Assembly: GCA_028293725.1 (NCBI GenBank)
Contig: JAQGOE010000092.1
Coordinates: 1-6,203, forward strand
DNA: 6,203 nucleotides
Direction of reading: 5' to 3'
DNA from: Gammaproteobacteria bacterium
GTDB lineage: Bacteria; Pseudomonadota; Gammaproteobacteria; Steroidobacterales; Steroidobacteraceae
Below, in pieces: positions 1-6,203 of the stretch (positions within the stretch are counted from its first letter, which is position 1; every line of letters begins with the position of its first letter). The position numbers and the translations under genes are program-made. Below the pieces are notes generated by a model, which was not told where the DNA came from, ran no database searches, and saw only the letters and a list, made by a program, of their open reading frames with translations.

Positions 1-146
1 ACCTGGATGTCGTAGCCATCGACGAACAGGGTTGCGGCGCACAGCAGCGCGACCAGCACCTGAACTCGCGACATGGGGCGGTGGTCGATGAGATCAGCGA
101 GCCCGATCTGCGACGACGCCGCGCGGGGTTCAGCGTCCGGCCCCAT
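1..146 (-). CDS. MFS transporter, AAHS (aromatic acid:H+ symporter) type, N-terminal part
   Basis: This is the 5' end of an inner-membrane permease; 48 full codons are visible before the window edge. The translation contains GLADLIDHRPMSRVQ followed by a hydrophobic first membrane segment that ends in DGYDIQ. The layout of a short soluble head with a DLID-R-P motif, then TM1 with a DGxD motif, is the signature of the AAHS family (PcaK, BenK and relatives). In PcaK the two aspartates of this motif are needed for 4-hydroxybenzoate transport; here they are residues 44 and 47. The ATG at 146-144 is chosen because it gives the usual 15-20 residue head before DLID. The ATG at 74-72 would remove that motif. 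The ribosome binding site is weak: GGAAG lies about 11 bases upstream. The gene starts 88 bases after the receptor stop on the same strand, so co-transcription is likely. The substrate is unknown; AAHS members carry aromatic and some alicyclic or short-chain acids. Confidence 0.82.
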   Translation of the reverse strand, partial: MGPDAEPRAASSQIGLADLIDHRPMSRVQVLVALLCAATLFVDGYDIQ

Positions 147-234
147 AGCCGGCCGAACTTCCACCCTCGCTACAGGCTGCGCCGTAGCCACTACCCCCAC
201 ACCTCGAGTTTCTTTCCGAGCGCTTTCAAGTGAA

Positions 235-2730
235 TCAAAGAGCTCGGAAGTTGCGCTTGAACATGAGGGACCACTCTCGCGGCATGGCCGGCTGCCCGTT
301 GACGTAGCCTGTCGATGAGTGGAGGTCGAACAGAGTCAGATAGTAGAGCTTGTTGGTCATGTTGGTGACATTCAGAGAGGCCTGCCAGACATCCGCCTTG
401 TCCCGCCAGGTCAGCCGGCCGTTGAGAATGGTGTAACCGTCGATCTGGTTCCAGGCGGGATCGTTAATCGGATTGGCGAACTGCGACGACTGATAGCTCA
501 TGTCCACTCGGGGCGTCACCGAACCCTTGTCGCCGATGGGGATTTCATACTGGGCGCCGACGCTCGCCTTGTACTTCGGCGTATACGGAGTAGTCATCCC
601 CAGCGTAATGCCGGAATCCACGACATCGTTGATCTTCGTGTACTTGAAATTGAGATAACTGGCCGACGCGTCGATCTCCAGGCCTCCGAGGGGGTGAAGC
701 TCGGTTTCCACCTCCAGACCCTCGACGTGGGCCGAGCCCACATTGGAGGGCAACGCGCAGGGTGCCGGCGGGTACTGTATGCCGTTGAGCGGCGGTGTCG
801 GACAGGAGGCCAATGTAAGCTGGATGTTGTTGTAAATGTTATAGAAGGCCGCCAGGTTCAAGCGCATGCGACGCTCGAACAGATTGGTCTTCAGGCCCAC
901 TTCGTAGGCCTTCAGCGTCTCGGGCTGGAAGTTCAGGGCCTGCGATGGGTAGAACGGTCGTGGATTGACACCGCCGCCCTTGTAGCCCGTCGAGGTTTCA
1001 ACGTAGGCCATGACGTCGGAGGTGATCTGGTAGTCCAAGTCCAATCTGTAGTCCGTACGGGTACCCTGGAAGGTTGCCGACGTGCCATTCAGCCCGGCGA
1101 CGAGTCCGTTGTAACCGGCTGGATCGGTAATATCCGAACCGTCGCCGTTGTGACGGTAGTACGTATAGGTCTTTTTCTCGTTCGAATAGCGCACCCCGCC
1201 CACCAGGTTCAGTTTGTCCGTCACATGCCATTCGGCGTTGGCGAATGCAGCCTCGGTGCGCGATGGCGTGCTGTCGGGCCCGTGGATGAAGTCGAACCCC
1301 ACCCAGGGCAGACCGACCCGGGCGTTGAGTCCCCCATCCTGGCGCAAGTAGAAGCCACCCACGGTGTAGTCGACTGCACTGCCGACAGAGCCGTTCAAGC
1401 GCAGTTCCTGGCTGAACTGCAGGTGCTTCTGTCGCTGCAGCAGGATCTCCACTCCGATGGGCGAGGCATCCGTCTGCTCGGCGAACTGGTTGGTGTAGTC
1501 CCGATAAGCGGTGATCGAGGTCAGGGAGAGCTTGTCCGCCAGTGTCCAGCGGATGTCGCTGGAAACCCCCCAGGCCTTGAAGTGGTTGATCGGGGGCACC
1601 GTGATCGGGGCGTAGGGGTCAGGCCCGAACACGAACGACTTGGCGTTGGACGTGTAGGTCGCATAGCTCAGGTACGGGTTGTTCGGATGGTTCGGATCGG
1701 TCGATTGCGGGCCGTAGGGAATGAACTGCCGCCCGTAGGTGACGGGCGCGCCGTTCACGCCGGTGATGTAGGTGAGGGCCCCGAGCGTTGGGGAGTTGGG
1801 GTTGGTGGGGGTCGGGCTGACGGGGTCGAATTTGATGACGGTATTCGCCTGCACACCCGACTGATCGTTGGTGGCGTCGGCGGCCAGATTCACTTCGACC
1901 GCCTCTGTTGGGAGCCAGCGCAATGCGATGCGCGCCGCATCGAAAGCCTGACTGCCGTCCTTGCCCAACGTACATCCATCGCCGACGGAATGGGTCGGGA
2001 TGTTGGAGCCCGGGTGCGTGCAGGCATAATCGACGCGGGTGACGTAGCCGTCGTGGTGCTTGCTGGCGAACGACAGGCGCACGAACAGCTTGTCAGGAGA
2101 CAGTGTAAAGTCCGCGGCACCGCGCGCGTCGATCCGATTGAGGCTGCCGTAGCCTGCTTCCAGATACGTCGTACCATTGCCGGTTGGCTTCTGGGAGAAC
2201 AGCTTGATAGCACCCCCGATCGAATTCTTTCCTGCCAGGGTCCCTTGAGGCCCGCGCAGGATTTCGACACGGTCAAGATCCAGAAGGTCCAGCACTGAGC
2301 CGGTCAGAGTGGCGTAGTAGACGTCATCGACATAGATGCCGACGCCCGGCTCGAGCGCGAGGTTGAAGTCCGTCTGGCCGACGCCGCGGATGAACGCCAC
2401 CATCGAAGAGCCGAAGGCCGCGCCGTTCGGCTGCAGGGTCACGTTAGGCGCCTGGCTAGCCACCTGCGAGATGTCGGTCTGATTGCGCTGCTCGAGCATC
2501 GCGGCGTTCACTGCAGTGATGGCGATTGGCGTCTGCTGCAAGTCCTGCCTACGGAACTGCGCGGTGACCACAACCTCCTGCAACTGTTCGCTGGCGGCGG
2601 TTGGACCGCTGTTGTCCGCGCTCTGCGCAGACGCCTGACTGACAGCCAGAGCGGCGACGAACGGCGCACCCACTGTAAAGCGCACAACTGACGTTAAAAC
2701 CCCGGAAAGGGTAAAAATCGAAAATTGCAT
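235..2730 (-). CDS. TonB-dependent outer-membrane receptor
   Basis: This is a complete 831-residue ligand-gated channel of the outer membrane, powered by TonB-ExbBD. In order: a signal peptide with probable cleavage after the ASA ending at residue 35; a TonB box, EVVVTA, at 52-57; a plug domain at about 63-180 with FIRGVGQ, IYVDDVYY and VEILRGPQGTLAGKNS; then a 22-strand-type beta barrel to the C-terminus. Conserved barrel blocks include GYKGGGVNPRPF (582-593), YEVGLKTNLFERR (609-621) and NVTNMTNKLYY (787-797). The length is normal for receptors of this type in Pseudomonadota with many catabolic genes. The start is supported by AGGGGG five bases upstream. The only four cysteines (237/253 and 643/658) form two close pairs, probably in surface loops. 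The final strand ends NFRAL, three residues beyond the usual terminal Phe. Its position between a LuxR-type regulator and an AAHS permease suggests uptake of an organic substrate rather than a siderophore, but the ligand cannot be read from the sequence. Confidence 0.95.
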   Translation of the reverse strand: MQFSIFTLSGVLTSVVRFTVGAPFVAALAVSQASAQSADNSGPTAASEQLQEVVVTAQFRRQDLQQTPIAITAVNAAMLEQRNQTDISQVASQAPNVTLQPNGAAFGSSMVAFIRGVGQTDFNLALEPGVGIYVDDVYYATLTGSVLDLLDLDRVEILRGPQGTLAGKNSIGGAIKLFSQKPTGNGTTYLEAGYGSLNRIDARGAADFTLSPDKLFVRLSFASKHHDGYVTRVDYACTHPGSNIPTHSVGDGCTLGKDGSQAFDAARIALRWLPTEAVEVNLAADATNDQSGVQANTVIKFDPVSPTPTNPNSPTLGALTYITGVNGAPVTYGRQFIPYGPQSTDPNHPNNPYLSYATYTSNAKSFVFGPDPYAPITVPPINHFKAWGVSSDIRWTLADKLSLTSITAYRDYTNQFAEQTDASPIGVEILLQRQKHLQFSQELRLNGSVGSAVDYTVGGFYLRQDGGLNARVGLPWVGFDFIHGPDSTPSRTEAAFANAEWHVTDKLNLVGGVRYSNEKKTYTYYRHNGDGSDITDPAGYNGLVAGLNGTSATFQGTRTDYRLDLDYQITSDVMAYVETSTGYKGGGVNPRPFYPSQALNFQPETLKAYEVGLKTNLFERRMRLNLAAFYNIYNNIQLTLASCPTPPLNGIQYPPAPCALPSNVGSAHVEGLEVETELHPLGGLEIDASASYLNFKYTKINDVVDSGITLGMTTPYTPKYKASVGAQYEIPIGDKGSVTPRVDMSYQSSQFANPINDPAWNQIDGYTILNGRLTWRDKADVWQASLNVTNMTNKLYYLTLFDLHSSTGYVNGQPAMPREWSLMFKRNFRAL

Positions 2731-2918: not shown

Positions 2919-2959
2919 ATCGAGCCCCTCAGGGGGAGCGCGCTTCGGAAATCCGCTCA

Positions 2960-3349
2960 CTAGATCAAGCCTACCGCGCGGGCCGCGTTCACCGCCTGCA
3001 GGCGCCGACGCACGCCAAATTTCCCGAAAATCTCGCGCCAATACCACTTCACCGTATTTTCTGACAGCATCAGCCGCTGAGCGATCTGCCGGTTCGGTAC
3101 ATCGCCCGCTGCCAACTCGAGAATGTCGATTTCTCGACGGTTGAGCTCCGGCCTGCACTTGCCCGGCGCAGCAAGCAAGCCATGCGCGGCGCCCCGCTCT
3201 TCGCAGCCGGGGAAAGCAGTCAAGAGCATAAGTCCATACGATCGCTCGTCGTCCGTGAGCTCTTCGGAGCTGATCGCGTTATGCAGCATGTCGCGCACGG
3301 CTTGGCCTGCATCAACAAACGTGCGCACGAAGCGGCGCGGTGCACCCAA
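2960..3349 (-). CDS. LuxR-type HTH domain, C-terminal piece of the split regulator
   Basis: This open frame of 129 codons follows the amber stop in the same frame. Residues 67-127 form a LuxR/FixJ-type DNA-binding domain. LNRREIDILELAAGD is helix 1, NRQIAQRLMLSENTVKWY holds the HTH, and REIFGKFGVRRRLQAV closes the fourth helix. The first 60 residues match the end of the sensor region of MalT-type regulators (RFVRTFVDAG). The only near start is TTG at 3349-3347, with AGG eight bases upstream inside the stop codon context TAGGCG, so reinitiation after the stop is possible but weak. Made alone, it would be a small DNA-binding protein without the ATPase switch. It ends in a tandem stop, TAG then TGA. 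The frame has no further damage. It is most likely the DNA-binding end of the upstream regulator rather than an independent gene. Confidence 0.6.
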   Translation of the reverse strand: MGAPRRFVRTFVDAGQAVRDMLHNAISSEELTDDERSYGLMLLTAFPGCEERGAAHGLLAAPGKCRPELNRREIDILELAAGDVPNRQIAQRLMLSENTVKWYWREIFGKFGVRRRLQAVNAARAVGLI

Positions 3350-3358
3350 GCGAATCGC

Positions 3359-3361
3359 CTA
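3359..3361 (-). other. In-frame amber (TAG) codon inside the regulator
   Basis: The minus strand reads CTG AAT TAG GCG ATT CGC TTG. The frame is open for over 800 codons upstream and 132 codons downstream. Conservation of the family pattern on both sides shows that the stop replaces one residue in a linker helix. Single changes from GAG, CAG, AAG, TTG, TCG, TGG or TAT/TAC would create it. Family patterns make Glu or Gln the most likely original residue, which is inference. Confidence 0.9.
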
Positions 3362-5773
3362 ATTCAGATGGTGACTGGCCGCGCTGACGTCGCCACGCGC
3401 ATACAAGAGCTTCGCGAGCTCCACCAACAGCCGGATCGATGATCGGTGACACTGACGCGACGCCGTGAAGCAGCACCAGTTCTTGATCAACCGGATAGCG
3501 ACATCGAGATACCCTTGAGCACCCGCCGCGCGCGCAAATGCGACTGCGAGCGCCTCGTGTCGCGTCGTTACGCCGTTGCGGGGCTCCAGGCCGATGCAAC
3601 TTCCCAGAAGATTGTTCCGCCGGGCGAGGTGCATCACACCGTCCTGGTCTCCACAAAGCACGAGCTGTCGCATGCGCTCGTTGATGACGTGCGCCTCCAG
3701 ACGCGCGAATCCGTTTGCCAGGGCGCATCGCTCGGCATCATCGAGGGTCAGCTGCGCGAGTTCGTATCGGCCGTCGTTGGCTTCCAGCTTTGCTTTGGTG
3801 ATGTAGCCTGCAATCACCTTGTCGACGAACCCGAAGCCGTGCGCCACATCCAGATAGTCCGCGACCAACCCGCGGGCCTCGTCGAGAGCACCGTGCTCGT
3901 AGTGCACCTCCGCAAGCAGCAACGCGGGCATGGAAGCGAGCGGCGCAAGTGGGCCATGCAGTGCTATCGCACTCGAGAACGCACGTTCGTACATCTCGCG
4001 GGCACAGTTCGTCTCACCGGCCATGAAGTACGCCACGCCGCTCAGGCTGCACTGGAATATCTCGGCGAAGGAGAGTCGCGCGCTGCGGTAGACCTCGTGA
4101 AGCACCTGGACGGCGACGTCGATTCCAGCACAATCGTAGTGCTCCCGTCGCGCCGCCAGCAGCGCCCCGGCAGCCGACACTTCCATGAGTGTGTCGGCGC
4201 AATGGCGCGCGGACAGCCAGTCCTCGCACATCCGGCGCGCGTGCTGCATGTCGTCACAGACGAGGGAAGTCATCATCTCGCTATGGGAGAGCTTTGCAGT
4301 GATGTAGTCGAAATTCACGTGCCGTGGCACTGGAAATCGACCGCTGCGCCAATCCTCGACGACGCGTCTCAATCGAGTGAGAGCCGTGCGCGATTTGCTG
4401 AAAGCCCACTCCGCCTCCCATCCCCAGATCCTCTCGAGTTGAAGGTTTGGAAACTGTTCGAGCACGCTGTCGGGAATCCGCGCGGTGAGACGCTCCTGTA
4501 GTGCGAGCTGTCCCTGCTCGTATAACGCGAGTTTGTCGAGAAGGTGTGCTGCGCGAAAGAAGTCCTTGCCCTGTAAAGCGTGCTCGATCGCCTCGACCCC
4601 GCAGCCGTTCTGTTCGAACCAAAGGGACGCTCGCGCGTGCAGAACCTGCAGCCGGTCCGGGTCCGAATCGCGAAGACGCCGTTCGAGAAGCCCTGCGAAG
4701 AGTCCGTGGTAACGATACCAACCACGCTCCTCGTCGAGCGGGAAGATGAATGCGTTGCGCGACTCCAATAGATCCAGGCGCGCGCGCGCATCGGAACACG
4801 CCGTCACGAAGTTGCACAACTCGACGCTCAGCCGAGTGAGGATCGAGGTGTCCAGCAGAAAGCGCAGCGTGGGCTCATCAGTCATCTCCAGAACCGTCGC
4901 CTGGAGGAAATCGGCGATGTTGCGATTCGTTCCGGAGAGGCGCTGTATCAGTAGCGCCGGATCCTCCGCGCGCTTCAAACTGACCGATGCCATTTGCAGC
5001 CCCGTGACCCAACCTTCCACGCGCGCATTGAGCAGGGCGGCCAGCTCAGGATCGAGCGCTGGCGTGAAGGGTCGTTGGAAGAACTCCCGCGACTCGGAAT
5101 CTGTAAACCGCAGATCTTGCGTGCGTAGCTCCACAATTTCGTTTAGAAGGCGCAGGCGGTTCACGGGCAGGTTCGGCGTCGAACGGGTTGTGATGATCCA
5201 GGAGAGCCGCTCATGTGCGGTCAGTATCAGGTCGGATAAGAGCAGTTGGCTGCGGGGATCGATCAACAGGTGGTGATCATCGATACAGATGATGAATCGG
5301 CGATCGAGGTCGGCGATTGCACGGTTGAGCAGATCGCGCGCCGTCGCCGGGTCCGGACAGTCGCCGCGCTCTGCCGCGCCCTTCAGTGTCTTGTGGACCG
5401 GGATCCCGATGGATTCAAGCGTCCCGATCAGATGCAGCAGGAATCGCGAATAGGCGTTATCGGCAGGATCCAGACCGAGCCACACGCTCGCCGGCGAAGC
5501 GCCGCGCAGTGACTCGTGCAATTGGCTCAACAGGCTCGTTTTGCCAAATCCGGCGGCCGCCTGGATTACCGCGAGTCGCGGCGCCTCCGCGGAAATTCGC
5601 GCTAGCAGTGCCGGCCGCGGCACCAGACCGCCCTTGCGTATCGGGGGTCCCAGCATGTTCTGATAGAGAGTCGTTGCGCCGCTCCGCGCCGCTCCCGGCG
5701 AGCGTCGCTCACTGACAACCCGTCTCGCCAGGTCACCGTGATTTTCAGATCGAGACCGCTCGCGATGGCGCAT
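3359..5773 (-). CDS. MalT-type ATP-binding regulator, ATPase and sensor part (truncated before the HTH)
   Basis: These 804 codons hold a STAND-class signal ATPase followed by a helical-repeat sensor. Numbering from the ATG at 5773: Walker A AAAGFGKTS at 72-80 (Lys78), Walker B FIICIDD ending in Asp165-Asp166, TTRS near 195-198, the GWVTGLQ block near 254-260, and RYHGLF of the winged helix near 354-359. Degenerate helical repeats run from about 395 to 800. In MalT-type proteins an inducer and ATP drive oligomerisation, and the C-terminal HTH then activates promoters. This piece ends just before the HTH, so alone it should not bind DNA. The start is uncertain. ATG 6028 keeps the frame open but adds 85 residues with codon use unlike the rest. 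ATG 5656 cuts into the conserved lead-in to GLVPRP. ATG 5773 has GGGAG about 11 bases upstream and is preferred. It lies next to the receptor gene, which it probably controls. Confidence 0.8.
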   Translation of the reverse strand: MRHRERSRSENHGDLARRVVSERRSPGAARSGATTLYQNMLGPPIRKGGLVPRPALLARISAEAPRLAVIQAAAGFGKTSLLSQLHESLRGASPASVWLGLDPADNAYSRFLLHLIGTLESIGIPVHKTLKGAAERGDCPDPATARDLLNRAIADLDRRFIICIDDHHLLIDPRSQLLLSDLILTAHERLSWIITTRSTPNLPVNRLRLLNEIVELRTQDLRFTDSESREFFQRPFTPALDPELAALLNARVEGWVTGLQMASVSLKRAEDPALLIQRLSGTNRNIADFLQATVLEMTDEPTLRFLLDTSILTRLSVELCNFVTACSDARARLDLLESRNAFIFPLDEERGWYRYHGLFAGLLERRLRDSDPDRLQVLHARASLWFEQNGCGVEAIEHALQGKDFFRAAHLLDKLALYEQGQLALQERLTARIPDSVLEQFPNLQLERIWGWEAEWAFSKSRTALTRLRRVVEDWRSGRFPVPRHVNFDYITAKLSHSEMMTSLVCDDMQHARRMCEDWLSARHCADTLMEVSAAGALLAARREHYDCAGIDVAVQVLHEVYRSARLSFAEIFQCSLSGVAYFMAGETNCAREMYERAFSSAIALHGPLAPLASMPALLLAEVHYEHGALDEARGLVADYLDVAHGFGFVDKVIAGYITKAKLEANDGRYELAQLTLDDAERCALANGFARLEAHVINERMRQLVLCGDQDGVMHLARRNNLLGSCIGLEPRNGVTTRHEALAVAFARAAGAQGYLDVAIRLIKNWCCFTASRQCHRSSIRLLVELAKLLYARGDVSAASHHLN

Positions 5774-6089: not shown

Positions 6090-6203
6090 CTAAGCGGTGG
6101 TCGAAGTCGTTAGATTCAATTCCCGTATCATCACATCACGGATGACAGACTTCTGGACCTTTCCGGAAGCCGTCATCGGGAAGGCGTCGACAAGGCGAAC
6201 ATA
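6090..6203 (-). CDS. Acyl-CoA synthetase (AMP-binding family), C-terminal end
   Basis: The last 37 codons of a gene that enters from the right edge. The translation begins YVRLVDAFPMTASGKVQK and ends at TAG (6092-6090). The PMTxSGKVQK block is the A10 motif of the ANL superfamily of adenylate-forming enzymes. Its first Lys (codon at 6161-6159) is the catalytic lysine of the mobile C-terminal domain, which orients the carboxylate and ATP in the adenylation step. The FPMT-x-[ST]-GKVQK form with VIRD after it is typical of fatty or aryl acyl-CoA synthetases rather than non-ribosomal peptide domains. The enzyme would turn a carboxylic acid plus ATP and CoA into the acyl-CoA in the cytoplasm. Its substrate cannot be read from this tail. 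The gene lies on the same strand as all others, upstream of the regulator. Confidence 0.88.
   Translation of the reverse strand, partial: YVRLVDAFPMTASGKVQKSVIRDVMIRELNLTTSTTA

Follow-up and report, generated by a model that had tools for sequence, protein, structure and literature searches.

The window, the whole stretch of DNA analysed here, is 6,203 bases long and carries its genes on the minus strand; along that strand a possible ligase tail is followed by the regulator, the TonB receptor and the start of an MFS gene, the fragments at the two ends being named from weak matches. The regulator gene is divided into two pieces by an in-frame TAG. Both pieces are closely matched by P0001, the nearest relative found among the matches listed. 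The features of the window are the following.

3..200, minus strand: likely start of an MFS permease gene, cut by the contig end (weak tblastn matches)
235..2730, minus strand: TonB-dependent receptor of 831 aa, the next gene (PF00593 and PF07715), 229 nt from the tandem stop
2957..2962, minus strand: tandem stop TAG TGA ending the regulator gene, with TAG at 2960-2962 and TGA adjoining it at 2957-2959
2963..3358, minus strand: downstream piece of the regulator, 132 codons, with the remainder of the sensor fold, then linker and GerE HTH (PF00196, identity to P0001)
3359..3361, minus strand: in-frame TAG, codon 805 of 937, occupied by a residue in 25/25 aligned relatives and falling, in the P0001 model, within helix 796-813
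3362..5773, minus strand: 804-codon upstream piece of the regulator gene, encoding the ATPase module and the larger part of the sensor (PRK04841, TPR_MalT, identity to P0001)

The regulator frame runs from ATG 5773 to the terminal TAG, and the interval from 5773 to 2963 comprises 937 codons. The internal TAG is its sole in-frame interruption, so that the original reading of one amber in an otherwise open, single-phase frame, with its coordinates, is confirmed. Over the same stretch the remaining two minus-strand frames contain 33 and 16 stops, which indicates that the openness on both sides of the TAG is not due to chance. G+C by codon position after the TAG (0.674/0.470/0.720 over 132 codons) was similar to that before it (0.678/0.455/0.730 over 804 codons). 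The frame could be extended upstream of 5773 to ATG 6028, which would give 889 codons up to the TAG, and the start residue of P0001 corresponds to ATG 5773, not to ATG 6028. Counting the TAG codon, the regulator has the same length as P0001 (937), and the proposal that the joined length fits the family therefore stands.

An NCBIfam scan matched PRK04841 to residues 39-472 of the upstream piece (E 2.9e-69). In the same piece Pfam gave AAA_16 at E 9.1e-06, under the curated cut-off, and TPR_MalT (PF17874) at residues 506-803 with 52.8 bits against a cut-off of 45. The downstream piece matched GerE (PF00196) at its residues 72-124 (E 5.9e-13). The predicted structural model of P0001 matched E. 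coli MalT, a STAND/LAL protein (PDB 8bob and 1hz4, 27% and 16% identical), from which the window's copy differs by its internal stop. These domain and structural matches support the earlier identification of a MalT-type regulator. As for the features of the MalT-like / LAL family, the N-terminal nucleotide-binding module was found through PRK04841 and the match of the P0001 model to 8bob, and the TPR sensor was found as well, though shortened by the TAG; the GerE HTH, which in the family belongs to the same polypeptide, is encoded in frame behind the TAG. Judged by sequence, the locus is thus a family member by descent whose product, under table 11, would be without GerE. We do not call the regulator MalT itself, since the upstream piece scored 234 bits and the downstream piece 30.6 against the 537-bit cut-off of the MalT equivalog NF003420 in NCBIfam, these scores being those of the two pieces taken separately.

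The TAG had been placed in a linker helix, exactly between the sensor and the DNA-binding domain, and this placement was not upheld. When the window protein was read with X at the TAG, TPR_MalT extended to residue 833 with 88.6 bits, and in P0001 it reaches residue 831. GerE starts at residue 877, 72 codons after the TAG position. In the predicted P0001 model, residue 805 falls in the middle of its helix and is followed by helices at 816-820, 824-835 and 841-853, by a low-confidence stretch at 856-873 and by the HTH helices from 879. Residues 473-855 of the model match the structure of the MalT sensor, domain III. According to the model, the TAG is within the predicted sensor fold, about 50 residues short of its end, and not at a domain boundary. 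Since it interrupts the last part of the sensor's helical repeat, neither piece is clean: the upstream one falls short of a whole sensor, and the downstream one carries sensor sequence ahead of its DNA-binding domain. With its fold clipped in this way, a stable free sensor is a less likely outcome of truncation.

Relatives of the upstream piece were searched for among 5.8 billion proteins, and the best 120 of the 392 found were listed. P0001 (937 aa, a cluster of 8 sequences) is 97% identical and P0002 (888 aa) is 73% identical over the upstream piece; both are MalT-like regulators from public sequence sets, both have GerE at the C-terminus, and both differ from the window's copy in being uninterrupted. 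P0001 is co-linear over the 937 codons, and in a gapless alignment it is identical at 783 of 804 positions of the upstream piece and 125 of 132 of the downstream piece. The 132 downstream codons are open, in agreement with the claim that no second lesion lies there. At the TAG column, 25 of 25 aligned relatives, our selection from among the first 65 of the 120 listed, have a residue, of five kinds; these are predicted proteins, so that TAG-bearing copies would appear as shorter proteins outside the alignment, and P0242, described below, may be one of these. By our own reading of the listing, PF00196 is present in 115 of the 120 listed relatives, the others being P0041, P0063, P0067, P0096 and P0099. 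P0041 (820 aa, 54%) is without its C-terminus from nearly the same place, after SAAWLH where the window has SAASHHLN before the TAG. Its loss looks like a frameshift and not a stop, and it is a single sequence on a 3313-base contig; its break and the window's TAG are only a few residues apart, which is possibly a coincidence or an assembly error.

A six-frame survey of 217 genomes of one family, in which stops were counted and at most 4 candidates were scored per genome, gave 42 matches from 25 genomes, all more distant than the relatives above, and 41 of the 42 are without an internal stop. By our count residue 805 is covered in 32 of the 42, and 31 of these 32 have no stop. The remaining one carries the only internal stop seen, a TGA in a distant MalT-like gene that is 29% identical (G491:C46:17883-20564). 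On these comparisons the sensor and the DNA-binding part are one gene in this family; they are not normally separate genes, an arrangement that would have spoken against a split. Genomic contigs were scanned with the upstream piece, and no relative turned up. A scan with alignment A1 found 574 stretches encoding one, with best segments at most 38% identical in the best 80 of the 574. In the order of G001, 0 of 396 genomes answered at E 1e-150, an empty result of an uninformative kind; in the order of G002 only G002 itself did so (1 of 53 genomes), and in the family of G001 4 of 217 genomes did so at E 1e-100, with 30-36% identity. A plasmid search with P0001 returned 339 records, every one below 60% identity, and P0001 matched 0 PADLOC families at E 0.001, so no defence role was indicated.

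The window differs from P0001 at 29 positions, the TAG included. With P0002 as outgroup, 10 of these changes are derived in the window (9 and the TAG) and 5 in P0001, which leaves 14 of the 29 unassigned; a comparison of 9 with 5 does not clearly point to relaxed constraint. The downstream piece appears somewhat more changed (7/132) than the upstream piece (21/804), an excess that is not significant (Fisher p 0.10). The GerE stretch, residues 877-929, shows 0 differences from P0001, which is weak evidence on timing because only about 1.6 would be expected over 53 residues at the overall rate of 28/936. This pattern agrees with a break so young that decay has not set in, or with no break at all. 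Ten of the 29 differences cluster in residues 97-185 of the ATPase module (window 5219-5485, minus strand), and this cluster might be a recombined patch.

The same data would be explained if the TAG had arisen in sequencing or assembly and the gene were uninterrupted in the cell, and a single wrong base would be enough. The window apparently spans its metagenome contig in full, since P0122, which has the same sequence as the window's receptor, is on a contig that is also 6203 bases long; the regulator's nearest relative is whole, and the GerE stretch shows no decay. There is no direct sign of error, however, as neither a second stop nor a frameshift occurs in the 937-codon regulator frame or in the 831-aa receptor frame. 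We consider an error a plausible, though less likely, source of the TAG than a real mutation.

It has also been suggested that the break is functionally tolerated. One form of this would be a functional split, in which translation either stops at the TAG and restarts at a TTG just behind it or begins internally at an ATG further on, giving a separate HTH protein released from inducer control.

3347..3349, minus strand: TTG, nearest possible restart (129 aa), 9 nt after the TAG and with AGG 8 nt ahead; putative
3227..3229, minus strand: ATG (89 aa), matching the start of P0242; no Shine-Dalgarno match found

The downstream piece contains 13 candidate starts, and AGG is in place for two of them, TTG 3349 and GTG 3298. 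The AGG ahead of TTG 3349 may therefore be there by chance, and so may the TTG, a codon like any other in the frame. In PMC10666635, distances of -8 to +10 nt are taken as predictive of termination-reinitiation, yet pairs near +10 nt are deemed likelier to be independently or very weakly translated. A fragment restarted at TTG 3349 would, on the P0001 model, include broken sensor helices.

When the downstream piece was used as query, 9 short relatives were recovered, among them P0242, a standalone HTH relative of 89 aa (3 members, on a JGI contig of 1070 bases) with one mismatch to the window's last 89 residues. The initial methionine of P0242 is an internal residue in P0001. The start of P0242 may be explained by an upstream stop like the one in the window, or by a contig beginning just ahead of it. 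With an upstream stop, the split would be real in a second strain, and P0242 would independently back a real stop and count against a sequence error; with a contig edge, the likeness would be trivial. The window's own regulator pieces were absent among the 120 listed of 392 representatives in the upstream search and among 9 of 9 in the downstream search. Two further odd members, P0243 and P0245, are a 160-aa C-terminal piece, whose contig is given as 23.7 kb, and a 228-aa protein in which the start of the ATPase module is fused to the end of the sensor; the latter looks as if produced by a large internal deletion. Taken together, a functional split seems improbable. At least as improbable is the fuller version, in which an HTH-less sensor-ATPase and a restarted free HTH are both made, the uptake genes are uncoupled from the inducer, the amber is fixed in part of the population and P0242 is a second copy of the split. 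If the TAG were maintained and the HTH fragment made, the locus would show how, in nature, one step can turn an inducible regulator into one that is inducer-independent.

The other form of tolerance would be that the amber is read through or suppressed and a full-length protein is made. The wholly intact downstream piece, with its HTH unchanged relative to P0001, would suit this. Against it, the TAG is kept in none of the 25 aligned relatives, so the conserved stop that was looked for as a mark of a programmed or suppressed amber is not there. The regulator gene itself ends in TAG, albeit with TGA right behind, and no tRNA lies within the window, which also gave no Rfam match at gathering score. 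Of the explanations considered, we regard readthrough or suppression as the least probable.

Most likely, then, the TAG is a recent loss-of-function mutation or a sequence error. There is nothing unusual in a regulator that carries a nonsense allele, or in a metagenome contig that is wrong at one base. This leaves the first part of the earlier proposal, a recent break or an error, in good standing, as the gene is intact on both sides and the family form is normally one gene; the second part, functional tolerance, is given little weight. At a probability of about 0.58, we favour the reading that the TAG is a real base and that the window carries a recent nonsense (null) allele of a regulator that is MalT-like and belongs to the large ATP-binding type of the LuxR family.

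Under this nonsense allele, translation would halt before codon 805. The product would keep the ATPase module and the greater part of the sensor but would be missing some 50 residues at the end of the sensor fold, together with the linker and all of the HTH. Such an HTH-less product should not bind DNA and would probably not work as a regulator. PMC4381067 describes MalT as a protein whose ATPase module is opened by the inducer; the protein multimerises, and this lets it bind DNA cooperatively and recruit RNA polymerase. Because MalT activates through multimerisation followed by cooperative DNA binding, the expected effect of the truncation is that target activation is lost, and the targets that would lose it are perhaps the adjoining transport genes. 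In glucose-limited laboratory evolution of E. coli, as presented in PMC7863352, the malT alleles were all missense and none lay in the DNA-binding domain; a truncation such as this one was thus not among the adaptive changes reported there. The ancestor strain in that study carried a nonsense suppressor.

The receptor encoded next to the regulator is 100% identical to P0122. The permease fragment gave no Pfam or NCBIfam match, and 2 of the 6 weak tblastn matches shown (39 records) are annotated as aromatic acid/H+ symporter. Around the distant loci L081 and L083-L086, flanks of about 1500 bases per side, read as ORFs only, had no clear common layout. At the right end of the window, a 34-aa stretch (6102-6203, minus strand) is what we take, from a motif, to be a possible ligase tail; it had no Pfam match at E 1, and its weak PDB matches (best E 0.11) include adenylating enzymes. 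The longest contig is 98,218 bases both for P0002, a relative of the regulator, and for P0123, a relative of the receptor. From this common figure and from the gene order, we infer that the receptor and the permease may be targets of the regulator. The gene order also suggests that these genes serve uptake and catabolism together, with an aromatic acid as a possible substrate.
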